Part shown: positions 16,744 to 58,604 of the stretch, piece by piece
Layout: every line of letters starts with the position of its first letter
How positions within the stretch are numbered: the stretch's first letter is position 1
From: Halorubrum alkaliphilum
GTDB lineage: Archaea; Halobacteriota; Halobacteria; Halobacteriales; Haloferacaceae
Assembly: GCF_017873815.1 (NCBI RefSeq)
Contig: NZ_JAGGKQ010000014.1
Location: 1 to 64,000 of the forward strand
Reading direction: 5' to 3'
Length of the DNA stretch: 64,000 bases
The notes under the pieces: generated by a model
Databases searched by the model: none
Told to the model about the DNA's origin: nothing
What the model saw: the letters and a program-made list of their open reading frames with translations, nothing else
Position numbers and translations under genes: made by a program

Positions 16744-16995
16744 TTTATAAGTGGACGAGCGAGATTGCTGGCGGCGGTTTATAAGTGATTGAGGGTACCG
16801 AAATCGTCTCCAAAGCCCCAGCCGTTCATTTATAAGTCGTTGACCGCGGATCGTCGATGGAGGCCTCCAAAGCCCCAGCCGACCGCAACCACACCTCACA
16901 CCTCCCCAGCCTCGTCGGCGGCCCCCTCCAGTCGCCGCCGACTCCCTCGCGCGCGTTTCTCGCGCGCGCCACTTCTTGGTTGAGCTATAAGGGTC
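16744..16995 (+). repeat. Structured intergenic repeat, copy A
   Basis: Non-coding copy with TTTATAAG at 16744, 16778 and 16829, CCTCCAAAGCCCCAGCCG at 16864-16881 (a second, near-identical copy at 16807-16824), CCTCACACCTCCCCAGCC from 16894, a GC-rich palindrome (about 16949-16968), GCGCGCCAC at 16964 and TATAAG at 16986. Spacings of 34, 51, 35 and 22 bases between these motifs recur in the copy at 41350-41839. The rest of 16545-17129 (before 16744 and after 16995) shows no gene; the last part should hold the promoter of the PiT gene. Confidence 0.8.
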
Positions 16996-17129
16996 GTCGA
17001 GACGACCGTTCGGCTCCGGGTCGACCCGACTCCTCCCGTTCGTTGGACACGCTGTCACCGCCGTACGCGGTGCGGATTCGTTTCGGAAAGCGGACTGCTT
17101 AACCGTAAGAGACGGGTTTCTTCAGACGA

Positions 17130-18308
17130 ATGGTTGAGATCCTCCTCGTCGTCGGTCTCGTCGTCGCGGCGTTCGTCGGATACAACATCGGCGGAGCGAC
17201 GACGGGCCCCGCGTTCGGCCCGGCGGTCGGCGCGGGCGTGATCTCGAAGGCGGGTGCCGCCGCGTTGATGTCCGTGTTCTTCTTCATCGGTGCGGGGACG
17301 CTCGGGCGGCGCGTCGTCGACACGCTCGGGGAGGACCTCATCACCGAGGCGGGCGTGTTCACGCTCGAATCGAGTATCATCGTTCTCTTTTTTATTGGCG
17401 GCGCGCTGTTCGTCGGGAACTACTTCGGCGTCCCGGCGTCGACGTCGATGACGGCCGTCGGCGCGATCGCCGGGCTGGGCGTCGCGACGAGCAGTCTCGA
17501 TCTGGCAGTTATGGGCGAGATCGCCATCTGGTGGCTCGTCGCGCCGATCATCGGGTTTTGGGTCTCCGGCGTCATCGGTCGATACTTTTATCCTCGGATC
17601 AACCAGTGGGTCGCGATCGAGGGCACGGAGGGACCGCTCCTGGATTTCGATCGGTCCGGCCTTCTCCCTCGCCCCTCGCTCGGCCCGAACACGACCCGTC
17701 GCGAGGTCGTCGGTGCGGTGGTCGTCGTCGCCATCGGCTGTCTGATGGCGTTCTCCTCGGGGACGTCGAACATCGCGAACGCGATCGCGCCGCTGGTCGG
17801 TGCGGGCGTCGTCGAGATGAACCCGATGATCCTGCTCGGTAGCGCGGCCGTCGCCGTCGGGGCGTTCACGATCGCGCGCCGAACGCTCGACACCCTCGGC
17901 AACGACATCACCGACCTCCCGTTGACGGCCGCCATCGTCGTCGCCGTCGTCTCCTCCGGGATCGTCATCGGGCTCTCGGCGATCGGGATCCCCGCGTCGT
18001 TCGTCATCATCGCGACGATGTCGATCGTCGGTCTCGGCTGGGGACGTGCGACGCGACCTGTTACCGTCAGCGAGGGGATCCGCGGGGACGGAGAGGCGAA
18101 CGTCTCCGTCAGCGCGCTGAAGGCCGACGAACCCGGCGACGAGGTGACGGAGATCGGCGAGGAGGACCCGGACGACATCCCGGCGGCCTCGGATCTGTTC
18201 GATCCGTCGACCACCGCGAGGGTCGTCGTGTTACAGAACGTCGTCCCGTTGCTCTCGACGATCGGCGCGTTTGTGACGTTTTACGTCCTGTTCGAGTTCG
18301 TTTGGTGA
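17130..18308 (+). CDS. PiT-family inorganic phosphate transporter
   Basis: A 392-residue membrane protein with about ten hydrophobic segments and the two inverted PiT signatures: GYNIGGATTGPAFGPAVGAG near the N-terminus and GTSNIANAIAPLVGAG near residue 210. A cytoplasmic acidic loop (about residues 320-360) precedes the last segment. It should import phosphate with a cation. No DUF47 accessory gene is adjacent. A second PiT-like gene lies at 23794-24972. Confidence 0.88.
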   Translation: MVEILLVVGLVVAAFVGYNIGGATTGPAFGPAVGAGVISKAGAAALMSVFFFIGAGTLGRRVVDTLGEDLITEAGVFTLESSIIVLFFIGGALFVGNYFGVPASTSMTAVGAIAGLGVATSSLDLAVMGEIAIWWLVAPIIGFWVSGVIGRYFYPRINQWVAIEGTEGPLLDFDRSGLLPRPSLGPNTTRREVVGAVVVVAIGCLMAFSSGTSNIANAIAPLVGAGVVEMNPMILLGSAAVAVGAFTIARRTLDTLGNDITDLPLTAAIVVAVVSSGIVIGLSAIGIPASFVIIATMSIVGLGWGRATRPVTVSEGIRGDGEANVSVSALKADEPGDEVTEIGEEDPDDIPAASDLFDPSTTARVVVLQNVVPLLSTIGAFVTFYVLFEFVW

Positions 18309-18317
18309 CGCCTCTCC

Positions 18318-18926
18318 TCACCGCCCGAATCGGCGCTGTCGGTCTTGGAAATCGAGCACCGCCCGCAGGTAATCGCGTCGTCTAAAATCGCGCCAGTTCA
18401 CGTCGGTAAAGTAGAGCTCGGCGTACACCGACTGCCAGATGGCGAAATCCGAGAGCCGCTCCGCGCCGGTTTTGATAACGAGATCCGGCTCCGCGGGGAA
18501 CACGAGCCGATCGGCGATCGTTTCTTCGTGTATCTCTTCAGGACCTATCTCTCCGGCATCGACGTCGCCGGCGAGATCCCGTACCGCGGCTGCGAACTCG
18601 GCTTTCCCGCCGAGTCCGACGTTCACCCGGATCGGCGCGTCCGCCGGCTCGGTGTCGTCCGGACCGCGGATCGACATCGGGTGCGGCGCGTCGAGCCGCC
18701 GAAACTCCCGGACCAACGACGGAACGACGGCGGGATCCAACACCGACACCGAGACGGTCACCCGCTCCGCGCCGTACTCGAACCCCCACCGTAGCGTCGA
18801 CGCCAGCGTCTCGAACGCGCCGTCGGCGAGCAGGTCCCGTTCCGTGATGACTATCGCCACGTGCGTAGGGGGAGTCCCGTCATGGAGCCGATGGCGAACG
18901 GAGAGGTACGCGTCATACAGGCCCAC
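18318..18926 (-). CDS. Cis-prenyltransferase (UppS)-like protein lacking the catalytic Asp motif
   Basis: The 202-residue product has the C-terminal half of undecaprenyl-diphosphate-synthase folds: DLVIKTGAERLSDFAIWQ, then YAELYFTDVNWRDF and a terminal RRFGR that contains an RxG. At the N-terminus the canonical MDGNRRWA is replaced by VITERDLLADGAF, and FSTENW is missing. The fold is therefore kept while the catalytic Asp motif is lost. It may be the non-catalytic partner of a heteromeric prenyltransferase, or a degenerate paralogue. Confidence 0.65.
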   Translation of the reverse strand: MGLYDAYLSVRHRLHDGTPPTHVAIVITERDLLADGAFETLASTLRWGFEYGAERVTVSVSVLDPAVVPSLVREFRRLDAPHPMSIRGPDDTEPADAPIRVNVGLGGKAEFAAAVRDLAGDVDAGEIGPEEIHEETIADRLVFPAEPDLVIKTGAERLSDFAIWQSVYAELYFTDVNWRDFRRRDYLRAVLDFQDRQRRFGR

Positions 18927-19044
18927 ACCGGCCCGTTTCGCGCGAAGCGTATAAGAGTTCGTGGGACCGCTCGGCGAGCCGACCGACGAGACGGAGTCGT
19001 CTGCGGACGAGGGATTTAATCCCGCGTCACTCTTAGCTCGTCCG

Positions 19045-19614
19045 ATGACCGATAGCTACCGTGGGGTGTTCGGCGCGATCCCCTACGCGATCCGTCACAC
19101 CGAGTCGTGGACGATGCGGGTGTACGGGATCGTCGGCGGGTTGGCGGCCGGGGCCATCGCGCTCGTCGTCACGCTCGCGCTCGTGGTCTGGATGGGCGAA
19201 ACCGCCGATGTCCAAAGCGGGACGTTCCTGTTTTCTCGCTCCTTATACGTCATCGCCGGCTTTGCGGCGGTCGCACCGCTTCTGGCCCCGTTGCTCTTCG
19301 TCGCCCGTCGCCACCGCCGAAACGACCCCGTCGCCGCCGGGTACGATCGCTGGTTGGCATACTCCGGGTTCCTGTTTCTGATCTCTCTGTACCTCGGTAT
19401 GGTCATTTCCGCCCCGGCGGATCTCCGTGACCCGACCGAGTCAACGGTCGTCTCCGCGTTATACGCGCTGCCACCGGTCTCCGGGGCCGTCCCTCCGATA
19501 GCTGCTGCCGCCGTCGTGTTCGTCACCCACTACCGCCTCCGTGGTTCCGGCTCAGCAGACGCGAGCGATGCTTCCGACTCATCCGATGTGAGTGACTCTT
19601 CTGACACCTCCTGA
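19045..19614 (+). CDS. Four-TM haloarchaeal membrane protein
   Basis: A 189-residue protein with four hydrophobic segments (about residues 28-52, 65-90, 107-127, 143-165) and a Ser/Asp repeat tail (DASDASDSSDVSDSSD). The start at 19045 is preferred because a TATA-like GATTTAAT lies about 30 bases upstream, as in leaderless genes; an upstream in-frame ATG at 18961 is less likely. Function unknown. Confidence 0.65.
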   Translation: MTDSYRGVFGAIPYAIRHTESWTMRVYGIVGGLAAGAIALVVTLALVVWMGETADVQSGTFLFSRSLYVIAGFAAVAPLLAPLLFVARRHRRNDPVAAGYDRWLAYSGFLFLISLYLGMVISAPADLRDPTESTVVSALYALPPVSGAVPPIAAAAVVFVTHYRLRGSGSADASDASDSSDVSDSSDTS

Positions 19615-19701
19615 CCCGTCCGCACACGGCTGGGTTCCCCCGACTGCGTTGGCGATGACGGCTCGAAACGCGGAAACGTCTCGACCACGTTCCTCCTCAC
19701 G

Positions 19702-20172
19702 ATGACCGATGACAAGCAGAGCACGTTCCTCGTGACACACGTCGAGTCGGAGTCGGCCGTCCTCAAGGACGTCCACGACGGACAGGTCCACACCCTGAGC
19801 TCGAATCCCGGCCTGGACGTCGACGACGCCGTCGAGGCGACCGTCGCTCCCGACCCACCGATGGAAGTCACGTATCAGGTGATCGAGGTGGCGGATCGCT
19901 GGCCGCTCTCCATCGAGCGGACTGAGGAGCCGCCGACGGTTCAGGAGCGCGAACTCGCCGCGGAGCTGTCCGTCGGCGAGTTGACCCGCGAGCCGCGTGC
20001 GGGCACGGGCGAAATTCACGTGTTGCGTCCGCCCGAGGACCGGACGGACGACGCGGTCGACGACGTGATAGACGATCGCGAGGGAACGCTGTCCCGGGCC
20101 GCCAGGCTCGGCGTGAACCGTGTGGAGATTCGCTCGGAACCGGGCGTTCTCAGCGTGCGCTATCTCCCCTGA
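19702..20172 (+). CDS. DUF5812-like haloarchaeal protein
   Basis: A 156-residue acidic protein starting MTDDKQSTFLVTHVESESAVL. An N-terminal beta domain (about residues 8-75) is followed by a helical part with REGTLSRAARLGVNRVEI. I associate it with the haloarchaeal DUF5812 family, often beside sec genes; no biochemical role is known to me. Lies 63 bases upstream of secF. Confidence 0.6.
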   Translation: MTDDKQSTFLVTHVESESAVLKDVHDGQVHTLSSNPGLDVDDAVEATVAPDPPMEVTYQVIEVADRWPLSIERTEEPPTVQERELAAELSVGELTREPRAGTGEIHVLRPPEDRTDDAVDDVIDDREGTLSRAARLGVNRVEIRSEPGVLSVRYLP

Positions 20173-20235
20173 CGCCGAACCGTTCCGATCCGGGAGATAA
20201 GAAGGCTTATTCGAGTTCACGGACGATGCGGTTCC

Positions 20236-21120
20236 ATGGGAGCGATCGAGGTACCGGAAGTCGACTACACCGACTACTCCAACCGGCAGCTCGTCGTGGT
20301 GCCGTTGGCCGTCCTCGCGCTGGCGATCATGATCATCGGCGGATGGTACTTCGTCACCGGCGCGCCGGCGAACCTCGGCTTGGAGTTCACCGGTGGGGTG
20401 GAGTTACGGATCGCTGACGACGGTAACGGGGACATCGAGGAGCGTATCGATGCGGCGTTCGCACAGGAGCCGGACTCGATCCGGTCTATCCCCGCCGACG
20501 ACGTAGTCGTCGTGACGTTCCAGGCGTCAGAAGACGATCCGGACGGCTTCGCCGGCGAACTGGAGGACCAAGCGAACGAGGCGGGACTGACGCTCGATGC
20601 TATCGATCAGGTCTCGGCGAGCTTCGCGGCCGACACGGCTCAGACCGCGATCTTCGGGGTCGCGCTCGCGTTCCTCGGCATGAGCGTGCTCGTGTTCGCG
20701 CTGTTCCGGACGTTCATTCCCTCGGTCGCCGTCGTCGCCTCCGCGTTCTCCGATATCGTCATTCCGATCGCGGCGATGAACCTGTTGGGAATCCAGATGA
20801 CGCTCGGAACCGTGGCCGCACTGCTGATGATCATCGGCTACAGCGTCGACTCGGACATCCTGCTGAACAACTCCGTGTTGCGTCGGACGGGGGACTTCTA
20901 CGAGTCCGTCAGTCGGGCGATGCGGACCGGTGTCACGATGACGATCACTTCGATGTCGGCGATGATCGTCATGGCGCTCGTCGCGACGCTGTTCGGGATC
21001 GACCTGCTCCGTGACATCGGGATCATCCTCGCTATCGGACTCGCGGCCGACATGATGAACACGTATCTGATGAACGTGACGCTGCTTCGCTGGTACAAGT
21101 TCGAGGGGGTGAAGCGCTGA
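20236..21120 (+). CDS. secF: Protein translocase subunit SecF
   Basis: A 294-residue RND-type membrane protein: one N-terminal TM, the SecF signature GLEFTGGVELRI, a periplasmic-type domain (about residues 60-125), then five TM segments with GYSVDSDILLNNSVLR. With SecD it assists release and translocation of Sec substrates at the outer face. The stop codon overlaps the secD start, as in other haloarchaea with secF first. Confidence 0.93.
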   Translation: MGAIEVPEVDYTDYSNRQLVVVPLAVLALAIMIIGGWYFVTGAPANLGLEFTGGVELRIADDGNGDIEERIDAAFAQEPDSIRSIPADDVVVVTFQASEDDPDGFAGELEDQANEAGLTLDAIDQVSASFAADTAQTAIFGVALAFLGMSVLVFALFRTFIPSVAVVASAFSDIVIPIAAMNLLGIQMTLGTVAALLMIIGYSVDSDILLNNSVLRRTGDFYESVSRAMRTGVTMTITSMSAMIVMALVATLFGIDLLRDIGIILAIGLAADMMNTYLMNVTLLRWYKFEGVKR

Positions 21121-22724
21121 TGCTCGAACCGATCAAGGACAACTGGCGGATACTCCTGTTAGTCGTATTCATAGTCGCGGCGTCCGTCGCGCTGTTCCTG
21201 CCGGCGTTCGGCCCGGAGACCGCACCCGGAGAGGACCCCGGCGAGGCTCGCCAGGGGATCTCGAACCTCCAGTACGGGCTGGATCTCGCGGGCGGGACGC
21301 GCATCCGCGCGCCGCTGCTCGGATACACCGCGACGAGCGTCGAGTTCGGCGGTGAGAGCACCGTACAGGTCGCGAGCGACGTCGCCGCCGAGCTCGACGG
21401 CGTCTCGACGCGGGACGTCACCGCCGAGCGGGACTCGGAGGACGGCGGCGAGGTGGAAGTGACCGACGCCGATGTCACCGAGGAGCAGTTCCGCGCGGCG
21501 ATGGACGCCTCCGGATACGTCTACGGCGGGATACGTAGCGGTGTTACAGAACAGACCCGCAACGCCGCCGAGGAGGTCATCCAGGAGAAGGTCAATGAGT
21601 TCGGCCTACAGGGCGGGACCGTTCGGCAGGTCCAGTCGATAACCGGCGAGTACTTCATTCTCGTCGAGGTGCCGGGCGGGGACCGTCAGAACGTGATCGA
21701 TCTGTTGGAGGAGCGTGGGACCGTCCAGATCGACATCGGTTATCCGGACGAGGACGCCGAGGACGGCCTCGCGATAGAGGAAGAGGCATTGATCCAGGAG
21801 GACTTCACCAACATCGGCACCGCCAGCCGGAGCGAGGAGGGTGACGGCGCGTACGTCTCGGTCTCCGTCATCAACGAGGCGGCCGAGGGCGAGCAGTCCC
21901 CCGCCCACCGGTTCCAGGACGCGGTCGTCGACCGCGGCGTCGCCACCTCCACCGGCGGGGCGACGTGTACGTACATGCAGGAGCCGGTCGGCGAGTCGGT
22001 CGACTCGTGTCTCCTGCTCGTCGTCGACGACGAGGTCGTTAACGCGTTCGGAATGCGTGACAGCCTCGCGGAGAGCATGGTTTCCGGATCGTGGGCCAAC
22101 GAAGGGATATTTCGGCTGACGACGACCTCCTACTCGGACGCCCAAGAGATCTCGATCAACCTGCGCGCCGGCGCGCTTCCGGCCGAACTCGACATCGCCG
22201 GACAGGGAACTTCCTCGACCATCTCGGCAGCACAGGGTGAGAACTTCCGGATCTACTCGATGATCACCGGCGTTCTCGCGGTCTTCGCGGTCGCTGGCAT
22301 GGTGTTCCTTCGGTACCGCGAGCCGAAGGTCGCGTTGCCGATGACTGTCACGGCGCTGGCAGAGGTGTATATTCTCCTCGGCTTCGCGGCGCTCATCGGC
22401 TACCCGCTCGAACTCGCGGTGATAGCCGGGTTCATCGCTGTGGTCGGAACCGGAGTCGACGACCTCGTTATCATCGCCGACGAGGTGATGAGCGAGGGCG
22501 ATGTGAACTCTCGGAAGGTGTTCGACTCGCGGTTCCGCCGCGCGTTCTGGGTGATCGGCGCGGCCGCCGCGACGACGATCATCGCTATGTCGCCGCTGAT
22601 GGTGCTCTCGCTTGGCGATCTGTCCGGGTTCGCCATCTTCACGATCCTCGGCGTCCTCGTCGGGGTCCTGATCACGCGCCCGGCGTACGGCGACATCCTC
22701 CGCCGGCTGCTGACGGTCCGATAA
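21120..22724 (+). CDS. secD: Protein translocase subunit SecD
   Basis: A 534-residue protein with an N-terminal TM (about residues 10-28), the SecD signature GLDLAGGTRIRAPL, a large extracellular region (about residues 60-375) and six C-terminal TM segments with GTGVDDLVIIADEV. It overlaps secF by one base, indicating co-translation. The large external domain carries a Cys pair (CTYM and SCLLL) unusual for haloarchaeal proteins. Confidence 0.93.
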   Translation: MLEPIKDNWRILLLVVFIVAASVALFLPAFGPETAPGEDPGEARQGISNLQYGLDLAGGTRIRAPLLGYTATSVEFGGESTVQVASDVAAELDGVSTRDVTAERDSEDGGEVEVTDADVTEEQFRAAMDASGYVYGGIRSGVTEQTRNAAEEVIQEKVNEFGLQGGTVRQVQSITGEYFILVEVPGGDRQNVIDLLEERGTVQIDIGYPDEDAEDGLAIEEEALIQEDFTNIGTASRSEEGDGAYVSVSVINEAAEGEQSPAHRFQDAVVDRGVATSTGGATCTYMQEPVGESVDSCLLLVVDDEVVNAFGMRDSLAESMVSGSWANEGIFRLTTTSYSDAQEISINLRAGALPAELDIAGQGTSSTISAAQGENFRIYSMITGVLAVFAVAGMVFLRYREPKVALPMTVTALAEVYILLGFAALIGYPLELAVIAGFIAVVGTGVDDLVIIADEVMSEGDVNSRKVFDSRFRRAFWVIGAAAATTIIAMSPLMVLSLGDLSGFAIFTILGVLVGVLITRPAYGDILRRLLTVR

Positions 22725-22784
22725 GGATCGAGCGGGTATCAACCGATCCACGTTTTTAACACCCGACGGACCGGACCCGTCGGT

Positions 22785-23294
22785 ATGCTCGTCGTTCTCT
22801 CCGACACCCACAGCACCGACGACCCGCGGCTCCGCGGGCGGACCCGAGAGGCGGTCCACGAAGCGGATCTCGTCGTTCATGCGGGCGACTTCTATCACGA
22901 ATCCGTTCTCGACGGCTTCGAGGCGGCCACCGACCGGCTTCGGGCGGTGTTCGGCAACAACGACGGGGCGACGATCCGCGATCGGATCCCGGAGGTCCGA
23001 ACCGTCGAGTACGAGGGCGTGCGATTCGCCGTGACACACAGACATCGGAGCGGCGACACCGGGCTCGTCATGCTCGGTCGCGGCCGCGACGCGGACGCAG
23101 TGATCTGCGGACACAGCCATCGGCCGCGGTTCGATGACTCGACCGATCTGCCGATCCTGAACCCGGGGAGTCACGCCCAGCCGCGAGGAAATCGCCCGGC
23201 ACACGCGGAGCTGGAAGGGGACGACGACGGACTCGCCGGTCGGCTCGTCACTCCCGACGGCGAGGTGTTCGAGCGGTTCCGGATCGAGTTCTGA
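22785..23294 (+). CDS. YfcE/MJ0936-type metallophosphoesterase
   Basis: A 169-residue protein with all metal-binding motifs of the small phosphoesterases: VVLSDTHS, VHAGDF, FGNNDG, VTHRHR, GHSHRPRF and NPGSHAQPRG. Members hydrolyse cAMP-like or generic phosphodiester substrates with two divalent metals. Transcribed from its own TATA (TTTTTAAC at 22753-22760), just after secD. Confidence 0.88.
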   Translation: MLVVLSDTHSTDDPRLRGRTREAVHEADLVVHAGDFYHESVLDGFEAATDRLRAVFGNNDGATIRDRIPEVRTVEYEGVRFAVTHRHRSGDTGLVMLGRGRDADAVICGHSHRPRFDDSTDLPILNPGSHAQPRGNRPAHAELEGDDDGLAGRLVTPDGEVFERFRIEF

Positions 23295-23516
23295 CGAGCG
23301 AGGGCGACCCTCGACTTCGGCCCGGAGAGACGGTATCGATTCGGACGGGGAGCCTTCGGGACGCGGCGGCGTGTGCCTCTTCGTTGGCAGATTCGGTGGC
23401 TCACCGGATGGCCGGGAGGTCGGGCATCCGAGGGAGGGCCGAAGCGGAGGTCGCACCTGAACGTGTCGACGGGATCGATTTATAGGTGTCCGAGGCACAA
23501 ACGTTCGTTTTAGCTA

Positions 23517-23583
23517 ATTTCAGGCGCTAAGCCCCCTGCCTCAAGGAGCCGCCAACGGCGGCGAGTAGGCAGGGGTAGTTCAC
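23517..23583 (+). mobile_element. Solo 3' end of an IS200/IS605-family TnpB element
   Basis: The sequence has the form of a haloarchaeal TnpB 3' end. A CTCAAGGAGCCGCC run resembles a decayed C-terminal coding end, a stem CCCCTGCCT/AGGCAGGGG (23533-23541 and 23566-23574) encloses a small hairpin GCCGCC/GGCGGC, and it terminates in GTTCAC at 23583, the same end as the complete element at 38512. No transposase gene remains. The rest of 23295-23662 shows no gene. Confidence 0.5.
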
Positions 23584-23662
23584 TGTCGAGTCTCTCTCCC
23601 GTCCGTGGCTGCGGGTGGCGGTGCGTCGAAACGCACAAGTCGATGCCCACGGATCCTCGTGT

Positions 23663-23791
23663 ATGACCTCGGTGGATATCCTCCCGATTCTCGTTCTCGC
23701 CATCCTTCTCGGGTTCTTTTTCTTCGGCTTTCTCCTCGTCCGCCGGACTCTGATGGGCCTCCGTGAGGGTTACGAGGACGGGCAGCAATAG
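23663..23791 (+). CDS. 42-residue single-TM microprotein preceding a PiT transporter
   Basis: The product starts MTSVDILPILVLAILLGFFF and continues as one hydrophobic helix to about residue 25, then RRTLMGLREGYEDGQQ. Its stop is 2 bases before the ATG of the transporter gene, so the two are almost certainly co-transcribed. It has a defined TM helix and positive-inside tail; I infer a transporter-associated small subunit. Confidence 0.65.
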   Translation: MTSVDILPILVLAILLGFFFFGFLLVRRTLMGLREGYEDGQQ

Positions 23792-23793
23792 CG

Positions 23794-24972: not shown

Positions 24973-24998
24973 GTGCGCTCGTCTGGCGGAGATCGTCG

Positions 24999-41211: not shown

Positions 41212-41349
41212 ACCGACCGACTGACCCGGCGTCGACTTAAAAACGCAGGCTCCGGGAGCGGTGGGGCTGGTGACCGATAGCAGGAGTGGGTCTCGTGAAT
41301 CGATGTCGGCGAGATCATATTTAAACGGTGGGGGGTGAGCGGGAGACGA

Positions 41350-41839
41350 TCGCTTATAAATAGATGGCGCGGTGGCGCGCCCCGGTGAGCGGCTCGGAGA
41401 GCCGCGAACCGCGAGGGACCGAAGGTCCCTCTGGCAGCCGGCGCGTAGCGCCGGCGACGACGGCGCGAGGTCGCCGGCGGCTCCGCCGCCGGCTGCCAGA
41501 GAATCTCCGATTCTCGCTGGAGTCAGAGGCGGTCGCCGAGCGGTTCCGGCGACCGCCTCTGACGAGGTTGGGGAGGCGTGAGGATGCGGTTGCTGTGCGG
41601 GGTGGGACTCAAAGAGACAGCCGGCGGCGGCGCCGCCGGCGACACCGCAACGAGGGAGCCTGCGACCGAGTGAGGAGCACAGCGAGCCTACGCCGCCCGC
41701 ACGGCTGGGGCTTTGGAGGTGTTCGCCGTCGATCCACAGTCAACCACCTATAAACGAGTGGTTGGAACGTGTGAGTGGTTTCTCGCGGAGTCGTCTACTT
41801 ATAAACCGCCGCTAGCAACACTACTCTCTCGCTTATAAA
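41350..41839 (-). repeat. Structured intergenic repeat, copy B (inverted, expanded)
   Basis: Reading on the minus strand: TTTATAAG at 41839 and 41805 (34 apart), TTTATAGG at 41754 (51 further), CCTCCAAAGCCCCAGCCG at 41719-41702 (35 further), then CCTCACGCCTCCCCAACC from 41583, GCGCGCCAC at 41380 and TATAAG at 41358 (22 apart). The order and spacings match copy A. Copy B is longer because GC-rich hairpins (41389-41563 and about 41620-41640) lie in the middle. The flanks of this 698-bp gene gap (41212-41909) show no gene. Confidence 0.8.
41389..41563. repeat. Run of short perfect hairpins with three-base loops
   Basis: Five stems of 7-9 bp each with a 3-base loop: GCGGCTC gga (41389-41405), GAGGGACC gaa (41413-41431), GCCGGCGC gta (41437-41455), GCCGGCGGC tcc (41473-41493), GAGAATC tcc (41499-41515). 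A 16-bp-arm dyad follows at 41522-41563. Some nest in a longer CTGGCAGCCGG/CCGGCTGCCAG pair. The class matches hairpins inside tnpA (36755-36798). Confidence 0.85.
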
Positions 41840-41909
41840 CACCACCGTCTCAGTATACTCGATCTACTCCCGCTATCGCTCAATACGCGGGCTTCAGCGA
41901 TCGGTCGCG

Positions 41910-49804: not shown

Positions 49805-49865
49805 GGACGCGGTAGACGGTCGCCGGGGGTAAAAGTCCCGTTTCGCCGTCAGCGAGATCGGCCGG

Positions 49866-50528: not shown

Positions 50529-50619
50529 GCTACACGGTAGCGCTCGAACGGACAAAAAACCTCCGTCGGTGACGGGAAGCGTCGACGGGAGAGACGAGGC
50601 GCGAGACGGCGAACCGGTG

Positions 50620-50976: not shown

Positions 50977-50977
50977 C

Positions 50978-51268: not shown

Positions 51269-51394
51269 GGTCGTTGGGATACGGTTCCGCTGCCGCGGTT
51301 ATAAATGGTGCGTTACGTCCCGCCGAGCACGGCTTCGGGGCCGCGAACGCCCGGCGAGCGAAGGGCTTTGTCGGATGACGCCGAAGGGGACCAC

Positions 51395-51772
51395 ATGAGC
51401 AGAGCCGTCCCCGTCGCCACAGCGTTCCTCGTCGGCGTCTGTGTGTTCGCGTGGCTCGCGGGACCAGTGTTGGAGGCTCGGTTCGGTGCCGAGGCGCTGT
51501 TGGCCGCCTATGGAGCCGTAGCCGCCGGTACCGCGGCCACGACCTACGTACTGGTCCGGCGGGTCGACACGCGAGTCTCCGGAGGTCAGACCGACGGGAC
51601 CGCGTCCGAGCCGGACTCCTCGACCTCGTCGACCGGCAACGACGCGGAAGCTGCGACCCCGAGCGACGACGAGACGCTGACCGTTCGGCTCGACGATCTC
51701 GACGACCTCGATGTGGAGCGGGAGGTCAGGCAGTTGAAGGCCGAACGATCCGTCGGAGGCGACGAGGAGTGA
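51395..51772 (+). CDS. Two-TM haloarchaeal membrane protein with acidic tail
   Basis: A 125-residue protein: two TM helices (about residues 5-22 and 33-52), then a cytoplasmic acidic tail DETLTVRLDDLDDLDVEREVRQLKAE, which looks like a short coiled coil. The start at 51395 is preferred over the upstream in-frame ATG at 51305, which lacks family support. Function unknown. Short 19-base direct repeats (GGAGTGACTGCGGAGGCGA) lie at its end. Confidence 0.6.
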   Translation: MSRAVPVATAFLVGVCVFAWLAGPVLEARFGAEALLAAYGAVAAGTAATTYVLVRRVDTRVSGGQTDGTASEPDSSTSSTGNDAEAATPSDDETLTVRLDDLDDLDVEREVRQLKAERSVGGDEE

Positions 51773-51895
51773 CTGCGGAGGCGAGAGGAGTGACTGCGGA
51801 GGCGACGGACGCCGGTCGCGGGGATCGCCGCCGGTCCCAGAGTCGAGTACCCCTATCGAAAGCACTAATCTACCGCCTCCCCTAACGTGTTCGAA

Positions 51896-52822
51896 ATGAG
51901 TCACCAGCTGCCGGACGTACAGGCGACCGCTCCTGACGTCACCGTCGGCCTCTCGCAGGTCGGCGTCACCGGCGTGGAGAAACTCGTCAAACTCGCCCGT
52001 GGCGACGACCGACCGATCGTGTTGATGGCCGAGTTCGAGGTGTTCGTCGACCTCCCGAGCGGACGGAAGGGAATCGACATGTCTCGCAACCTCGCGACGA
52101 TAGACGAGATATTAGAGGAGATCACTCGTGAGGAAGCGTACCGCGTCGAAGACGTCTGTGGAGACGCCGCCGAGCGTCTTCTGGAGAAACACGACTACAC
52201 CACCACCGCCGAGGTGTCGATGTCGGCGGAGCTAGTCACCCGCGAGGAGACGCCGGCCTCCGGACTCGAAACACAGAGCACGGCGACCATCGTCGCCAGC
52301 GCGACCGCAACCGACGAGGGGACTCGCGCGGAGATTGGCGCAGAAGTCACTGGCATGACGGTGTGTCCCTGCTCACAGGGAATGTCGGAGTCTCGCGCCC
52401 GTGACAAGCTTCACGAACTCGGAATCGACGAAGAGACGACAGAGGAGTTCCTCGATGCGGTTCCGCAGCCGGGTCACTCCCAGCGCGGCCACGCGACCCT
52501 GACGATCACGACCGACGACAGTCCGGCGGTCGACCTTCGTGACGTAATCGATGTCGCCCGCGACTCGATGAGCGCGCGCATTTATAACATGGCAAAGCGC
52601 CCCGACGAGGACCACATGACCTACGAGGCCCACGCCGACGCGAAGTTCGTCGAGGACTGTGTCCGCGCACTTGCCGAGGGGACCGTCGAGGAGTTCGACC
52701 ACCTCCCGGACGACGCCGTGATCCACATGAAACAGTCGAACGACGAGTCGATCCACCAGCACAACGCCCACGCCGAACGCGAGGTTCGGATGGGTGACCT
52801 GCGGGACGAACTGCGTCGGTAA
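51896..52822 (+). CDS. mptA: GTP cyclohydrolase MptA (GCYH-IB type)
   Basis: A 308-residue type IB GTP cyclohydrolase: [49 protein letters not shown] (metal Cys) and [13 protein letters not shown] (His). It makes a 7,8-dihydroneopterin cyclic phosphate for methanopterin/folate-type pterins. The start at 51896 (MSHQLPDV) is preferred over GTG at 51887. Confidence 0.9.
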
Positions 52823-52946
52823 GCGTGTAAACGCGGTTGGTGAGCGTCTTATAGTCCGGATCCCTCGTACGACGAACTCGTCGATGTCACACTACCGTAC
52901 GACACTCACCCCGAATATATTTCCGATGACGTGATTATCTGAAACT

Positions 52947-53213
52947 ATGGCAATAACGACCAGCCTTGGTACACTCCCACTGGCGGGGATAGTGGCCCTG
53001 GCGCTGACGTTCGTGGCTGTGGCTCTTCAGTCACGGAATCGCCTCCCGGTTTCGATTCCGGAGGGCGTGTACGTCAGCGTCTCGATAGGCGCGGCGCTTC
53101 TCGTTGCGCAGTTCCTCATCGAGTCGACGTGGGGGACCGTCGGAGTCCTCGCCGTCGGCGGCCTTTGTTGGGCCATCGGCCACGAAACTGGCCAGATAGC
53201 TCGGAATCAGTAA
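52947..53213 (+). CDS. Small three-TM membrane protein
   Basis: An 88-residue hydrophobic protein with TM segments at about residues 7-26, 41-60 and 64-80 and a short polar tail (GHETGQIARNQ). TATA-like CGAATATATT lies about 38 bases upstream. No family recognised. Confidence 0.55.
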   Translation: MAITTSLGTLPLAGIVALALTFVAVALQSRNRLPVSIPEGVYVSVSIGAALLVAQFLIESTWGTVGVLAVGGLCWAIGHETGQIARNQ

Positions 53214-53309
53214 CACGAGACAGGCCATATGCCCTTTTTGTATATTTCGGGGAGATACCGCAACGATGCGAGCGGTGTCGGAACGAGGAGATAGCGGTCG
53301 ATCCGGCCG

Positions 53310-54119
53310 TCACTGCCCGAACGTCAGCGGCTCTGCTTCCGCCCAGCGCGGCTCGAACTGCTCTTTCACGCTCGTCGCGAACTCCACGTCTTTCACATCG
53401 ATCATCGCGAACGGCTCGTCCGCCGACAGCGGGTGTGGCACCTCGATACACACCTCTATCTCGTCGAACACGTTGAACGTCCCGTCGACGCCGGGTGATG
53501 TCCGGACCTCGAACCCGTCCACCTCGGCCAGTTCCGACGTGTACCGGCGGCCGACGCTTCGTGGAAGCGCGTCGACGGTTTCGGGCGAGAGCAACACGCG
53601 GACCTCGACGCCGCGGTCGAGCGCCGCCTCCAACTCTTCGGTCACCTGTTCGCCGATCGTTCCGAGGTCGAACCCGGTCGCGGGCGCGCCGGCGACGACG
53701 ACCATTCGGCGTTCGGCGGCCGCGATCCGTTCCAAGAGGAGGTCGGTCGCGTCCTCGCCGCCGACGGCCGCCGTCCAGAACTGTCCGTCGACCGGTTCCC
53801 CGGCGTCGAGCTCGGTCGACAGCTCGTCGACGACCTCCCCGTACTGCTCCGCCCGTTCCTCGAGCTCCCGCTGTTTCTCCTCTAAGAGGCGGTCGAGCGC
53901 GGCGTCGGGCTCGACCGCGGCGTACTTCTTCGGCCGGCTGGCGGCCTGACTCCGAACGAGGTCGTGTTGCTCCAGACTGTTGAGCACGTCGTAGATCCGC
54001 CCCATCGGGACCTCGCTGGCCCGCGAGAGGTCCTTCGCCGTCGTCGGACCGGTCCGCAACAGCGCGCGATACGCTCGGGCCTCGTACTCGGAGAGCCCGA
54101 GGTCACGAAGGGATGCCAT
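53310..54119 (-). CDS. TrmB-family transcriptional regulator
   Basis: A 269-residue TrmB protein: wHTH LRDLGLSEYEARAYRALLRTGPTTAKDLSRASEVPMGRIYDVLNSLEQ, a coiled-coil linker (about 75-110), and the sugar-binding-type C-terminal domain with GEDATDLLLERI. TrmB regulators respond to sugars or other metabolites. The leaderless start at 54119 is supported by GTTTATATC at 54141-54149; target genes are not evident from the neighbourhood. Confidence 0.85.
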   Translation of the reverse strand: MASLRDLGLSEYEARAYRALLRTGPTTAKDLSRASEVPMGRIYDVLNSLEQHDLVRSQAASRPKKYAAVEPDAALDRLLEEKQRELEERAEQYGEVVDELSTELDAGEPVDGQFWTAAVGGEDATDLLLERIAAAERRMVVVAGAPATGFDLGTIGEQVTEELEAALDRGVEVRVLLSPETVDALPRSVGRRYTSELAEVDGFEVRTSPGVDGTFNVFDEIEVCIEVPHPLSADEPFAMIDVKDVEFATSVKEQFEPRWAEAEPLTFGQ

Positions 54120-54253
54120 ACCGGACGATCCATCGGACACGATATAAACGCGTCGGACGTTTACGCGAGTTCGTCCCGACGATACGGACAAAGAAGAGAC
54201 CCGAAACCGGAGCGATATGGTCGGAAACGTCCGTCGGACGAGGCGAGTCGGGA

Positions 54254-55912
54254 TCAGTCGATCGTCTCGGCGACGCGCGTCATCAACTCGTCCGGCGTTG
54301 TCGCAGGTTCGGAGGCGACCCCGTCGACGAGGACGACCGCCGAACCCTCTGGGACGACTCGGGGAGCCGGCGCGTCCGCCCGGTGTGCGTTCGGGGCGAC
54401 CACTTTCTCGTGGTCGGCGACCCGCCACGCCGCGCGGTGGAGGTCGCTGCCGGGCTCCGTCCCGACCACGATAACGGTCGTCCCGCGGAGCAACCGCCCG
54501 ACGAGGCTCCCGTACTCCGCGACCTGAACCCCGAGTCGCTCGGTCGCACCCGCGAACGATTCCGCGGTCTCGCGGGCGACCTCGCGATACCGCTCATCCC
54601 CGGTGAGCGCCGCCAGGTCGACGAGCGCGGACGAAAGCGCCACGTTGCCGTCGAGCGGCCGGAACGACCGGTCGAGCAGCGCCGGTCCCGAACGGGGACC
54701 GTCCACGAACGAGCCGTCGACGTGGAGGGTCTCGATCGCCCGGTCCGCGACCGCACGGGCGACGGTCGCCCCTTCGCCGAGCACGCCCGCCCCCCGGACG
54801 TACGCGGCGACGACGCGTGAGACGTCTTCGAGCAGGTCCGCCTCCCCGACCTCGTTGTTCGCGCGGTAGTGGACCACCTCGCCGGTGTCCGCGTCGATCA
54901 GGTCGCGTTCGAGTCCGTCGAGGATCCGGTCGCCGTACTCGCGGGCGCGCTCGTCGTCGGTGTAGGCGGCGACGGCGAGCAACGCGTCGGCCGCGAGCGC
55001 GTTCGCGCCCGCGAAGACCGTGAGATCACGACGCGGCGAGTCGAGCTCGGCGCGGTCCTCGGCCGGCGCGGCGTAGTAGGCGCGGCCGAGTCCCGGACCC
55101 AGACTCCCGCCGACGCCGTAGCCGGTCCAGAGGTCGTCGGTCAGGAACTCCACCGCGTCGACGGCGGGCGTCCGATACGCCTCGTCGCCCGTGTAGAGGT
55201 AGGCGTTCGCGAACGCCCGGGCCACCGCGGCGTTGGTGTCAGCGGGTTTTTCGTAGGCAACGTCCCCCCAGTCGCGCGAGCCGGCGAACCGGAAGAAGCC
55301 GCCCGCGACGTCGTCCGCGAGGTGATCGTGGACCGCGTCGAGGGTGCGCAACGCGCGGTCGCGGTCGCGTTTCAGCGCGAACTCGACGGTTCGCGGGAGC
55401 GGGAACTTCGCGTCCGATCCCCAGCCGGCGTGTTCGGCGTCGTACTTCCGCTCCACCTGCCCGGCGAGGTGGCTCTCGATCACCTCCGAGAGCTCGCCGG
55501 CCGGCGGTCGGTCGCCGTTCAGCGCGCGAGGGACCCGGCCCCCGGACCGCCCGTCCTCGACCCACATCGTCCGGACGGACTCGAGCACCTGACGCATCCC
55601 GTCGACGCCGAGGTAGCCAGCCCCCGTGAGAAGCGTTCCCCCCGGTGTGAGGAAGGCGGTGGTCGGGAAGCCGCCCATGTTGTATCGCTCGCGGACGCGA
55701 GGATGTCGGTCGACGTCGACGCGGACCGGGACGAACCACTCGTTCACGTTGGCGGCCACCCGCGGCTCCGCGTAGGTGGTCGCGTCCATCTCGTGACAGC
55801 CCTCACACCAGGTGGCGGACAGCGAGAGCAACACCGGGCAGTCCCGGTCGTCGGCCTCGGCGAACGACTCCCGGCCCCAGTCGCGCCACTCGACGCGAGT
55901 CCCGTCGGTCAT
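54254..55912 (-). CDS. Thioredoxin-domain DUF255/YyaL-like protein
   Basis: A 552-residue protein with an N-terminal thioredoxin-like DUF255 domain (SATWCEGCHEMD, active-site CEGC near residue 34; RVDVDRHPRVRERYNMGGFPTTAFL) and a C-terminal alpha/alpha barrel like YyaL/N-acylglucosamine epimerase. Shorter than most DUF255-YyaL proteins (about 700 residues). The function of the combined protein is unknown to me. Confidence 0.8.
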   Translation of the reverse strand: MTDGTRVEWRDWGRESFAEADDRDCPVLLSLSATWCEGCHEMDATTYAEPRVAANVNEWFVPVRVDVDRHPRVRERYNMGGFPTTAFLTPGGTLLTGAGYLGVDGMRQVLESVRTMWVEDGRSGGRVPRALNGDRPPAGELSEVIESHLAGQVERKYDAEHAGWGSDAKFPLPRTVEFALKRDRDRALRTLDAVHDHLADDVAGGFFRFAGSRDWGDVAYEKPADTNAAVARAFANAYLYTGDEAYRTPAVDAVEFLTDDLWTGYGVGGSLGPGLGRAYYAAPAEDRAELDSPRRDLTVFAGANALAADALLAVAAYTDDERAREYGDRILDGLERDLIDADTGEVVHYRANNEVGEADLLEDVSRVVAAYVRGAGVLGEGATVARAVADRAIETLHVDGSFVDGPRSGPALLDRSFRPLDGNVALSSALVDLAALTGDERYREVARETAESFAGATERLGVQVAEYGSLVGRLLRGTTVIVVGTEPGSDLHRAAWRVADHEKVVAPNAHRADAPAPRVVPEGSAVVLVDGVASEPATTPDELMTRVAETID

Positions 55913-56011
55913 ACCGGTCGTCGGCCCGGCGGGCGGGTAAGCGCTTCGAGACGGGGAGCGGAGCCGGGAGCGAACCGAAGCCGTTTCGGTCCGGATCGTT
56001 CATCGAACGGC

Positions 56012-57085
56012 ATGGACGCTCCGGAATCCGGGAACGCGATCCCCCACGTACGTGTCGTCGCCTGCGGCGGAACCATCGCCTCCGAGCCCGACGCTGACGG
56101 GGCCGCGCCCGCGAAGACCGGCGACGATCTCGTCGCGGCCGTGCCGAGCGTCGAGGACCACGCGAGCGTCTCCGCGCGGGAGGTCTGTGCCCGGCCGGGG
56201 CTCGACGTGCGCTGGCGCGACCTGTTCGCGACCGCGGCCGCAGTTCGGGACGCGGCTGACGGAGTCGACGGGACGGCCGCAGATGGCGTCGACGAGACGG
56301 GCGCCGACGGTATCGTGGTCACTCACGGAACGGACACGCTCGCGGACACCGCCTACGCGCTCGACGTCCTCACCGACCTCCCGGTTCCGGTGATCGTGAC
56401 GGGCGCACAGCGCCGACTGGACGAGCCGTCGAGTGACGCCCCTGCCAACCTGACGCTCGCGGTCCGCGCGGCCGCGGACCCACGGTTCGCTGACGGCGTC
56501 CACGTCGCGTTCGACGACGAGCTCCATGCCGCCCGCGACGTGATCAAGGGCCACAGCAACGCGCTCTCGACGATGACCTCGCCGGGAAGCGCCCCGGTCG
56601 CAACGTTCACCCGCGGGGGCTCGCGGATCCTGCGGGAGCCGCGTCGCGGGGTTGCCGCCGACCCACTTGCCGGATCCAAGGGACCGCTCGCGGGCGTCGA
56701 CCCCGGAACGGCCGCGAAGCGCGTCCCCGAGGTGCCGGTAATCCATTCTGGAACCGGCGCGGGCGCGGGGTCCATCGAACGCGCTCTGGACGCGGGCGTG
56801 GGCGGACTCGTGGTCGAGGGGACCGGGCTCGGCAACGTCACGGCCGCGCTCGGCGACACGATCCGGGAGGCGGTCGGCTCGGTTCCGGTCGTCGTCGCCG
56901 GTCGGCCCCCCGCCGGACCGACGGAACCGGTGTACGGAACGCCGGGCGGCGCGGTGACGCTCGAACGCCACGGCGTGACTTTCGCCGGGGACCTCCCGGC
57001 TGCGAAGGCGCGGGTCGCGCTCGCCCTCGGACTGGCGGCCGACCTCGACGAGGCGGGAATACGCCGCCTGTTCGAGCGACCGTGA
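56012..57085 (+). CDS. ansA: L-asparaginase family protein
   Basis: A 357-residue type I/II asparaginase: VVACGGTIAS (first catalytic Thr), VTHGTDTLADTAYALDVL (second catalytic Thr-Asp), NLTLAVRAA and GTGAGAGSIERALD. It hydrolyses asparagine to aspartate and ammonia. A short acidic tandem insert (GVDGTAADGVDETGADG) precedes the second motif. The start at 56012 excludes an out-of-family upstream extension. Confidence 0.88.
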   Translation: MDAPESGNAIPHVRVVACGGTIASEPDADGAAPAKTGDDLVAAVPSVEDHASVSAREVCARPGLDVRWRDLFATAAAVRDAADGVDGTAADGVDETGADGIVVTHGTDTLADTAYALDVLTDLPVPVIVTGAQRRLDEPSSDAPANLTLAVRAAADPRFADGVHVAFDDELHAARDVIKGHSNALSTMTSPGSAPVATFTRGGSRILREPRRGVAADPLAGSKGPLAGVDPGTAAKRVPEVPVIHSGTGAGAGSIERALDAGVGGLVVEGTGLGNVTAALGDTIREAVGSVPVVVAGRPPAGPTEPVYGTPGGAVTLERHGVTFAGDLPAAKARVALALGLAADLDEAGIRRLFERP

Positions 57086-57229
57086 GCAGGGCTTACCCCG
57101 GTCGAGGTGGGTCGGAACGACTGATGGGGGTCGGGACCACGCTCACGACGGCGTTCCCGAGCGACGATAGGACAGAAATCCGTTTGAGTTTACACGAAGC
57201 CCTTACGTATTCAGGTCGTAGCGACGGGT

Positions 57230-58378
57230 ATGAAACGACTCGGCCGACGCAAGACGCTGTACGGGATCGGAGCCGCCGCGACGACCGCCCTGCTCTCCGG
57301 TTGCGTCGGCGACGGCGACACCGGACTCGGAGACGACGACGGGACCGGTGACGGCGATGCCGGCGGTGAGGGGATCGAAACAGCGGTCCACCAGGTCGGG
57401 CGCGCGCTCTCCGGCCCCGCGTGGCGACGGAGCGACCGGGTCGGCGTGTGCCTGCTGGTTACCGATCCGAGCGACGCGGGCTGGCTGTTCGCCGAGGCCG
57501 ACGCCGAGACGGAGTCGTTCCTGGAGGAGACGGAGTTCGAGGAGTCCGTCGTCGCGTACGTCGAGTCGGTCGGGCCGACCACCTGCGACTCGCTGATCGA
57601 GTTCGCGGACCTCGCGGTCGAGGACGGAACGCTCGTCGGAGACGCGACGGTCGCGAGCACTGCCGACGGCGAGGACGTCGCCTGCGGGGAGGCGGTCACC
57701 TACTCCGGCGCGATGGTCCGGGTCACGGCCGCGTCGCCCCCGGATCGGCTCCGACTCGCCGTCACCGATGGCTGGGACGAAACGGCCGAACTCACCGGCG
57801 AGGGGGGGATCCGTGACCCCGAGTCGCTCGACGGCTTCGTGCGACCCGACGGGGATCCGGCGAGCGTGCCCGCCGCGCTCGACTGTCCCGACGACGAGTT
57901 CGAGCGGCATTACTCGTCCGCCGGCGACGACGTGAACTGGGGCTCCGCCGGAAGCGTCGACGACGAGGACGGACTCGAAATGCGGCTCGTGAACCCCGCG
58001 TACGACGGCGACGACCCGGTGGAAGCGCTCCGGCTCGAACGCGGCGACGAGTTCCGCGTCGAGATGACCAACGTCTCGTCCCGCGACATCGGCGTCGGCA
58101 ACCACGGGAAGTACAACCTCGAAGCGTACACGGAGGAGGGATGGACCGAGGTCCGCGGGGGCGAAGACGCCTCGCGGTTCGCGTACACGGACGAACTCGT
58201 CTCGACGCGACCCGCCGAGACCGTCGAGTGGTCGTTCACGATGACCGAGGAGGGACTGGTCGAGGGCGGCCCCCACGAGGACCACCTGCGAGTCTGTCCC
58301 GACCTCGAACCCGGCCGCTACCGCTTCGTCTTCTGGGGAGCCGACGACCTCGCGGTCGCCTTCGACTACGTCGGGTGA
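57230..58378 (+). CDS. Tat-exported lipoprotein of unknown function
   Basis: A 382-residue protein with a twin-arginine signal and lipobox: MKRLGRRKTLYGIGAAATT then LLSGC near residue 24, followed by a Gly/Asp-rich linker typical of haloarchaeal lipoproteins. The exported part has four Cys and beta-rich repeats (DRLRLAVTDGW, FRVEMTNVSSRDIGVGN). No enzyme family recognised; probably a binding or surface protein. Confidence 0.72.
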   Translation: MKRLGRRKTLYGIGAAATTALLSGCVGDGDTGLGDDDGTGDGDAGGEGIETAVHQVGRALSGPAWRRSDRVGVCLLVTDPSDAGWLFAEADAETESFLEETEFEESVVAYVESVGPTTCDSLIEFADLAVEDGTLVGDATVASTADGEDVACGEAVTYSGAMVRVTAASPPDRLRLAVTDGWDETAELTGEGGIRDPESLDGFVRPDGDPASVPAALDCPDDEFERHYSSAGDDVNWGSAGSVDDEDGLEMRLVNPAYDGDDPVEALRLERGDEFRVEMTNVSSRDIGVGNHGKYNLEAYTEEGWTEVRGGEDASRFAYTDELVSTRPAETVEWSFTMTEEGLVEGGPHEDHLRVCPDLEPGRYRFVFWGADDLAVAFDYVG

Positions 58379-58406
58379 CCGGCGCGGGCGGCCGGAGTCG
58401 GAGTCA

Positions 58407-58604
58407 TTTATAAGGAGGTGGCTGCGGGTCAACGGTCGAGACCGCCACAGCCCCAGTCGCCGGAGCCGCTCGGTGACCTCGCGCCTGCCCCTGGCGCTCT
58501 TAAAAAGGCGCTCGGAGGCGCGCAGGGTGAGAGCGAAGCGCTCGCTAACAACCGGCGGCTCCACCGCCGGTGACGGCGACCGCACGACTCCGTTCGGTTA
58601 TAAG
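58407..58604 (+). repeat. Structured intergenic repeat, copy C (5'-truncated)
   Basis: TTTATAAG at 58407 is followed 35 bases later by CCGCCACAGCCCCAGTCG (58442-58459, 15 of 18 matches to the copy A/B motif), then CCTCGCGCCTGCCCC from 58477, a hairpin ACCGGCGG/CCGCCGGT (about 58550-58570) and TATAAG at 58599. The first two TATA-like motifs are missing because the preceding gene ends there. The rest of 58379-58791 shows no gene. Confidence 0.6.

Follow-up and report, generated by a model that had tools for sequence, protein, structure and literature searches.

Intergenic repeats of Halorubrum with IS5-type ends: a genus-wide family of probable MITE-like elements with a foldback core

In the parts of the Haloquadratum walsbyi study considered here, MITEs are described as having transposon-related inverted ends, often with target duplications, and as too short for a transposase, PATEs as lacking inverted ends and related to IS605, and SMRs as having ends that match no transposon (PMC3119063). 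The class I repeats of halovirus HF2, according to the sections of the report drawn on here, are intergenic, 56–58 bp long and carry a TATA motif (PMC8707807). Here we describe intergenic repeats in a window of 64,000 nucleotides (the whole stretch of DNA analysed) from Halorubrum alkaliphilum. Judging from sequence comparison, they very probably belong to a family of MITE-like, non-autonomous transposable elements found across the genus, with a core that is possibly kept by the host. The likeness to the H. walsbyi MITEs is one of description. Unlike PATEs, which have neither terminal inverted repeats nor target duplications, the element has both, the duplications in part of the copies; unlike SMRs, whose ends are unrelated to transposons and whose targets are not duplicated, it has IS5-family ends and partial duplications. 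With HF2 class I repeats, as far as the cited sections describe them, it shares intergenic repeats of 56–58 bp and a TATA motif; those repeats differ in their TCTTTAAGTC core, viral location and fixed position, and a search of 50,697 phage records with copy B gave no match at E≤1e-5.

Intact copies, 583–645 bp long (nine aligned), have at their ends GGCTCTGTTGAAATCC, which is also the terminal repeat of ISHla2-like insertion sequences of the IS5 family. IS5-family transposases (NF033579; PF01609) are located between termini of this type, with ISHla2 and ISHxa2 as the named relatives. The elements share with these insertion sequences the 16-bp terminus, right-end subterminal sequence and an 8-bp target duplication, the last being perfect (8/8) in two of five fetched plasmid IS regions (Halorientalis litorea and Hrr. 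hochsteinianum) and absent, in the frame used, from the other three, ISHla2 and ISHxa2 included. They differ in having a non-coding core in place of a 273-aa transposase (822-nt CDS), and in their second end, which is not the IS left end. Two plasmid elements, of 647 bp in Haloferax gibbonsii pHG2 and 399 bp in a Hrr. ezzemoulense megaplasmid, have both end types and perfect 8-bp duplications with no annotated transposase, but their interiors are different and lack the TATA-box and hairpin core.

Three copies, A, B and C, lie in the window (Table 1). The order and spacing of motifs given in the preliminary description were confirmed by direct reading and a letter-by-letter recheck. In A and, on the minus strand, in B, three TATA-like boxes (TTTATAAG, with TTTATAGG as the last in B) and the 18-mer block 1 follow one another at steps of 34, 51 and 35 bases. 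C has the 35-base step, and its variant matches the 18-mer at 15 of 18 letters. The distance from GCGCGCCAC to TATAAG is 22 in both A (16964 to 16986) and B (41380 to 41358), and GCGGCGGTTTATAAGT is common to the two. The limits proposed there were too narrow, inner inverted repeats being found outside them. SL1 and block 2a are missing from A, and past its right box the right part and transposon ends are unrecognisable. Copy C survives as a truncated relic and lacks the middle block.

Table 1. Positions of repeat copies and their parts in the window
Feature	Positions	Strand	Remark
Copy A, decayed element	16710–17000	+	same site occupied in five relatives
A inner inverted repeat, left, CGAGAGTGGGTGTCTCGATAC	16710–16730	+	3 mismatches to consensus
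A TATA-like box 1	16744–16751	+	direct reading, recheck
A TATA-like box 2	16778–16785	+	direct reading, recheck
A extra tandem 18-mer block 1	16807–16824	+	1 mismatch; second 18-mer, absent from the preliminary description
A TATA-like box, last unit	16829–16836	+	direct reading, recheck
A 18-mer block 1	16864–16881	+	exact
A block 2b, CCTCACACCTCCCCAGCCTCGTC; block 2a and stem 1 missing	16894–16916	+	direct reading, recheck
A block 3 (GCGCGCCAC) and right box (CTATAAG)	16960–16991	+	direct reading, recheck
Copy B, all blocks present	41281–41872	-	592 bp between inner inverted repeats
B stretch missing in six same-genus relatives (empty site)	41244–41901	-	
B TATA-like box 1	41832–41839	-	direct reading, recheck
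B TATA-like box 2	41798–41805	-	direct reading, recheck
B box of last unit, TTTATAGG	41747–41754	-	direct reading, recheck
B 18-mer block 1	41702–41719	-	exact
B block 2, TCTCTTTGAGTCCCACCCCGCACAGCAACCGC...CCTCCCCAACCTCGTC	41561–41617	-	direct reading, recheck
B block 3, GCGCGCCACCGC	41369–41380	-	direct reading, recheck
B right boxes	41318–41360	-	TTTATAAG 41360–41353, TTTAAATA 41325–41318
B inner inverted repeat, right end, CAGGAGTGGGTCTCGTGAATC	41281–41301	+	3 mismatches
B inner inverted repeat, other end	41866–41872		
Copy C, shortened element between convergent genes	58407–58675	+	
C box	58407–58414	+	
C block-1 variant	58442–58459	+	
C right box GTTATAAG	58597–58604	+	
C TTTTAAATACGATC	58629–58642	+	
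C repeat-like end	near 58651–58675	+	

What had been described as a three-copy family has at least about 50 dispersed copies in this genome. The 18-mer, at up to three mismatches, occurs at 101 sites and its reversed pattern at 19, and TTTATAAG and CCAAAGCCCCAG stand 18–40 bases apart in 27 pairs against none in the control. Since 23 of the 77 18-mer clusters, those without an upstream TATA-like box, were excluded and 54 retained, counts based on these 54 lean to boxed copies; at ~600 bp each, these 54 make up ~1% of the genome by arithmetic estimate. The further copies in related Halorubrum genomes that had been set as a check were found, with the exact 15-mer core in 48 of 52 same-genus genomes, unevenly distributed, single genomes having between 0 and 122 exact cores. 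Beyond the genus, three of 345 sampled genomes of the class had one chance-like 15-mer match each. A plasmid search for the full element gave two short partial matches only, and none of the 72 viral contigs that contain the exact 15-mer had block 2a downstream; TATAA lay upstream in two of them, in unrelated sequence. The open-access literature, searched both for the sequence and for descriptions of such a repeat, yielded no account of it; open-access papers containing the 11-mer deal, in the text available, with unrelated subjects.

Recognisable ends are kept by a minority of copies. Of 48 outer flanks in the H. alkaliphilum genome, 12 have an end resembling GGCTCTGTTGAAATCC at ≤5 mismatches in the 66–83-nt window beyond the inner repeat, against two matches in 16 control windows of 47–48 flanks each; across the genus, 10 of the 52 genomes together gave 17 end-plus-repeat matches, and the control gave none. 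Flanks alike at six or more of eight bases border 7 of 14 end-paired copies (one at 8/8, three at 7/8 and three at 6/8, one of the last, L213, being a T-run), compared with 0 of 196 shifted control windows; the other seven have no duplication (1–4 of 8). The 14 include the L226 pair (1297 bp) and leave out a second 946-bp pairing in L217 and the end matches without a partner (L215, L216, L218, L219). The intact elements have one end similar to the right end of the IS (8/9 clear of shuffled background, L222 at background) and another similar to the transposase-less plasmid elements with 8/8 duplications (again 8/9, with L213 at background). In three of the nine intact copies the interior lies the other way round with respect to the ends, which is not explained by simple transposition.

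Eight relatives, those with the best of 29 fetched loci, were examined at the copy-B site, and in six of them it is empty. For the site of copy A, 30 loci were tabulated, our own included; in 11 relatives the fetched stretch did not contain the tRNA anchor, and in the 18 with both anchors block 1 was present in five, a block-2 match only in G039, and neither in 12. The element kept in these five lacks transposon ends. Genes neighbouring copy C match far apart or on different contigs in the relatives listed.

We assign the family to MITE-like elements, with high but incomplete confidence, on the basis of the IS5-type ends, the flank duplications and the empty B site. The suggestion of a non-autonomous mobile element, one of the four made before, is supported by matching transposon ends, partial 8-bp duplications, empty sites and genus-wide copies. 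The inverted ends are those of an autonomous transposon, the duplications have that transposon's length in part of the copies, intact copies are shorter than the transposase CDS alone, and many dispersed copies occupy sites that are filled in some relatives and empty in others, whether by gain or by loss. An IS5-family transposase acting in trans would move the elements, and decay of the ends after insertion would then fix a copy. This names a likely type of mobiliser for the intergenic repeats. A working one was not found in the H. alkaliphilum genome, because the transposase of the C24 IS copy has only 175 aa and seems to be shortened, and the termini of the intact IS5 element found there differ somewhat. 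An IS6-family origin, considered because of the 8-bp duplication, was rejected; the IS6-type transposase in one copy (C3:167997-168314) appears to be a later insertion with other ends.

Within these ends, the inner inverted repeat forms a nested foldback, in which a hairpin core is flanked on each side by TATA-like boxes. Near-invariant blocks (CAAAGCCCCAGCC; TGCCCCTTTGAG; CCTCCCCARCC; CGCGCCACC) surround covarying stems. At the A site in five species, 86 of 92 block columns are invariant compared with 157 of 268 gapless columns elsewhere (354 with gap columns), which suggests selection on the core, as seen at one orthologous site with block limits chosen after viewing the alignment; homogenisation between copies may also cause the conservation. 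The core may have been retained by the host, either transcribed from the facing boxes into a structured RNA or working in folded form at the 3′ ends of genes; we hold this with somewhat less than even confidence. More speculatively, it might represent a novel class of structured RNA in archaea, or of DNA regulator acting by foldback, which an IS5-type transposon carries and multiplies and which is domesticated after insertion at gene ends. The transposon ends would rot while invariant blocks and stems were kept, and a genus would come to hold one regulatory RNA in dozens of copies flanked by promoters. Should the host have retained the core as an RNA or gene-end element, the family would be a case of an archaeal transposon spreading a structured non-coding module.

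Among the alternatives to a MITE-like origin, a structured non-coding RNA family with a cellular function and only incidental mobility fares best, as a tentative possibility. It draws on the block invariance at the A site and on the stems, which pair at a mean of 13.4 of 18 positions within a copy versus 10.0 with shuffled partners (200 cores; maximum 10.3 in 200 shuffles). The compensatory changes that had been proposed as a check are thus present between copies, but they are also expected of DNA palindromes; the stems are nearly perfect ones, with 0 G-U pairs in 46 stems beyond the first four pairs (the count stops at the stem end), a DNA-level correction would give the same result, and only 95 of 200 cores reach 14/18 pairs. 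One copy folds better than its shuffles on both strands (z -4.2 and -5.7). On the block strand, the 95 better-paired cores have 28 A-C versus 9 G-T stem mismatches, which hints weakly that the RNA may be the other, G-rich strand. Against an RNA family stand the uneven copy numbers among genomes and Rfam 15, which gave no gathering-level match in the window except four tRNAs and none at E≤1 for one intact copy.

Rather unlikely is a reading as phased promoter arrays, in which each TTTATAAG would be a TATA box with a start ~26 bases on, near block 1, and the arrays would be regulatory modules for neighbouring genes. Box-to-block spacing is indeed narrow, the box lying 38, 35 or 32 bases before CCAAAG at 144 of 153 boxed unit sites, and in halovirus HF2, according to the portion of PMC8707807 considered here, a reporter is driven by 58-bp repeats whose TATA motif stands at -26. 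However, 98 of 251 unit sites (13/75 in H. alkaliphilum, 85/176 in other genomes) have no box even when CTTATA is counted as one. Strict phasing, once put forward, is not a genus-wide feature because other letters replace the box in other genomes, where it precedes block 1 at only 91 of 176 sites versus 62 of 75 at home among the loci covered; in several species these letters are CTCGGCGATACG-like. Further, TTTATAAA is self-reverse-complementary, which leaves direction ambiguous, the usual BRE-like purines are absent before the boxes, and copies are enriched between convergent genes rather than upstream of genes. The interior of a MITE-like element may nevertheless hold a functional RNA or promoters.

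The same enrichment (21/39 copies with both neighbours called, versus 6/33 window gaps ≥60 bp, by a home-made gene filter), together with near-perfect palindromes, could point to a DNA-level gene-end element, such as a two-way terminator, insulator or nucleoid-protein site acting by extrusion of the nested palindrome. Convergent gaps are, however, also where transposons survive best and do least harm, and we regard this reading as unlikely. For a chromosome-organising role, raised earlier, this enrichment is the only direct support.

The tandem 48–72-bp units, for example in the 34/51/57 pattern, would be local expansions of a box-plus-block module. All 46 distinct inter-unit segments of one sample are 48, 51, 54, 57 or 72 long, multiples of three that might encode a repeated peptide; such coding is highly improbable and was rejected, as every frame is interrupted by stops in at least 11 of the 46 units, degenerate arrays of H. 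alkaliphilum also have spacings of 56 and 58, and acidic ORFs overlap only 2 of 54 elements. Long stretches common to copies notwithstanding, simple segmental duplication of intergenic DNA is the least credible reading and is disfavoured for intact copies by their shared ends, the 8-bp duplications in half of end-paired copies and the unrelated outer 75 bp (mean pairwise identity 0.27–0.28 versus 0.69–0.90 inside, block-1 identity being biased upward by the search). Several contigs of the assembly start or finish near repeat copies, which makes the family relevant to assembly.

The repeat family proved to be far bigger than the three copies of the preliminary description (A, B and C). Direct rereading of the sequence bore out these copies and the quoted distances of 34, 51, 35 and 22 bases, and in the whole Halorubrum alkaliphilum genome (3.1 Mb, 64 contigs) the shared 18-mer (block 1) was found at 101 sites with three or fewer mismatches, tandem units counted, versus 19 for the reversed pattern. 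Box and block 18–40 bases apart occurred 27 times (control 0); the 54 of 77 18-mer clusters with a TATA-like box upstream were taken as the element study set. Further copies in related genomes, which the preliminary description had proposed to look for, are present: the exact 15-mer TCCAAAGCCCCAGCC occurs in 48 of 52 Halorubrum genomes at 0 to 122 sites per genome (control 0), counts that are too low for divergent copies, since the copy B core matches genome G045 strongly in at least two places and the exact 15-mer occurs there once. A class-wide sample gave 46 of 391 genomes, comprising 43 of 46 from the same genus and 3 of 345 others; in these three the element context is absent around the match, which apparently lies within genes. 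Scanning named genomes with block 2, another near-invariant core stretch, gave 119 stretches; among the 80 loci listed, 78 were titled Halorubrum, the archaeal bin A07HR67 carries the true core, and one Bacteroidales bin does not. Several H. alkaliphilum copies lie no more than a few hundred bases from contig ends (C2:160, C3:157, C7:7, C15:216, C24:268 and C35:105), and in four copies (L009, L019, L024 and L047) the stem 2 region holds long C/G homopolymers resembling assembly artefacts.

End-to-end alignment of nine intact copies from seven genomes gave the anatomy listed in the table, with slight variation among copies. Allowing up to three mismatches to CGGGAGTRRGTCTCNCAAWNC, the inner repeat occurs 73 times in the H. 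alkaliphilum genome (control 0). Since the left box sequence pairs with the right box in the predicted fold of one copy, the interior would form a nested foldback. The two transposon ends differ from each other, and in three of the nine copies the interior lies between them in the opposite orientation, perhaps through recombination between the inner inverted repeats.

Parts of the intact element, in order, and transposase-less elements with both end types
Feature	Coordinates	Description
Part 1		terminus GGCTCTGTTGAAATCC
Part 2		subterminal sequence, about 60 bases
Part 3		inner inverted repeat CGGGAGTR
Part 4		two TTTATAA boxes, ~34 bases apart
Part 5		block 1 CAAAGCCCCAGCC
Part 6		stem-loop 1
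Part 7		block 2 TGCCCCTTTGAGTCC ... CCTCACRCCTCCCCARCCTCG
Part 8		stem-loop 2
Part 9		TCCCTCGC, between stem-loops 2 and 3
Part 10		stem-loop 3
Part 11		block 3 CGCGCCACC
Part 12		TTTATAA
Part 13		TTTAAATA
Part 14		inner repeat, second occurrence
Part 15		second terminus
Haloferax gibbonsii pHG2 element	L209:2501-3147	both end types, 8/8 duplication
Hrr. ezzemoulense megaplasmid element	L212:2501-2899	both end types, 8/8 duplication

Terminus-like matches stand at the expected distance in 12 of 48 outer flanks in the H. alkaliphilum genome, versus 2 over 16 control windows, and the genus yields 17 exact end-plus-repeat matches, spread over 10 of the 52 genomes, with none in the control. Flanks are alike at six or more of 8 bases in 7 of 14 end-paired copies, while none of 196 shifted controls exceeds 5: a copy in relative G021 has an 8/8 duplication (AATTTCAT) and three others, including C6:35690-36277 of H. 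alkaliphilum, match at 7/8; the remaining seven score 1–4. The same termini are found on IS5-family elements carrying transposase. Two of five such regions examined have 8/8 duplications, which in the frame used are absent from three, including ISHla2 and ISHxa2; the two with duplications are the Halorientalis litorea element (1238 bp, GCTTGCCT) and the Hrr. hochsteinianum element (1418 bp, GATTTTCT). The pHG2 and Hrr. ezzemoulense elements, which carry no annotated transposase, have the same ends as the Halorubrum element but unlike interiors, and all may perhaps belong to a wider haloarchaeal cassette family. No intact mobiliser with termini identical to those of the element was found in the H. 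alkaliphilum genome; from the common ends we infer an IS5-family insertion sequence as the putative mobiliser. Judging from sequence, the spread mechanism would be ordinary, that of a MITE-like IS5 derivative. The same genome holds an intact IS5-family element of ~937 bp on contig C32 (L203:1335-2271; TIR GGCTCTGGTGAATCGC, 8-bp duplication GATGACTG), and an element copy at C3:167486-168670 (L072, L207) has an IS6-type transposase insertion (PF13610) near its right end.

What appears unusual is the conserved box-flanked foldback core, which seems to persist once its transposon ends have decayed. At the tRNA-Gly site that copy A occupies, five relatives (G009, G021, G047, G048 and G050) have the element in the same position and orientation with the transposon ends lost; among 18 relatives with both anchors, 12 have neither block and G039 has a block-2 match only. 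Across the five, 86 of the 92 columns in the blocks show no variation, versus 157 of 268 gapless columns in the stem-loops and right flank (354 with gaps), and pairwise identity is 0.94–1.00 in blocks and 0.78–0.80 outside. This contrast, which suggests selection on the core, is somewhat inflated because block limits were drawn seeing the alignment and the tRNA side did not enter the comparison. Third-codon-position identity in the neighbouring gene is 0.87. The tRNA-Gly 3′ end (AATCTCGGCCGGTG[CT]A) is repeated at least once just downstream (window 16525-16620), as it is in G009, G050 and G048 (L275, L276, L280), resembling what integrase attachment scars would leave.

Six of the eight best relatives examined (G001, G006, G011, G012, G022 and G033) have an empty site at the position of copy B. 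G004 carries different DNA there, terminating in a block-3-like stretch; in G043 a boxless core adjoins a different neighbour. At the G004 locus (L115) the element's place is taken by a small ORF whose paired-cysteine motifs look zinc-ribbon-like by eye; the block-3-like remnant follows it.

Compensatory pairing, suggested as a check in the preliminary description, is evident in 200 distinct cores, where stem arms pair at 13.4 of 18 positions within a copy versus 10.0 with shuffled partners. The stems are nearly perfect: beyond the first four pairs, 46 of them contain 304 Watson-Crick pairs, no G-U, 5 A-C and 3 other. In the 95 better-paired cores of the 200, foot included, the block strand has 1643 Watson-Crick pairs, 28 A-C, 9 G-T and 30 other; with related copies not independent, the A-C excess gives only a hint that the opposite strand may be the putative RNA.

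Block 1 with its box is tandemly repeated (period 48–72 bp) in H. alkaliphilum and some other genomes, an expansion of which the 34/51/57 pattern of copies A and B is one instance. Each of 46 distinct inter-unit segments has a length of 48, 51, 54, 57 or 72, always a multiple of three; no reading frame stays open through them. A TATA-like box is present at 153 of 251 unit sites examined, in 144 cases 38, 35 or 32 bases upstream of CCAAAG. The 98 boxless sites comprise 13 of 75 in H. alkaliphilum and 85 of 176 in other genomes; thus, the box is usual in the former and not required genus-wide.

A home-made gene filter for acidic ORFs called both neighbours of 39 copies; 21 of these are flanked by convergent genes, versus 6 of 33 window gaps of at least 60 bp, a placement compatible with avoidance of transposon harm and with a gene-end function alike. 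Overlap with an acidic ORF longer than 100 aa was seen for 2 of 54 elements.
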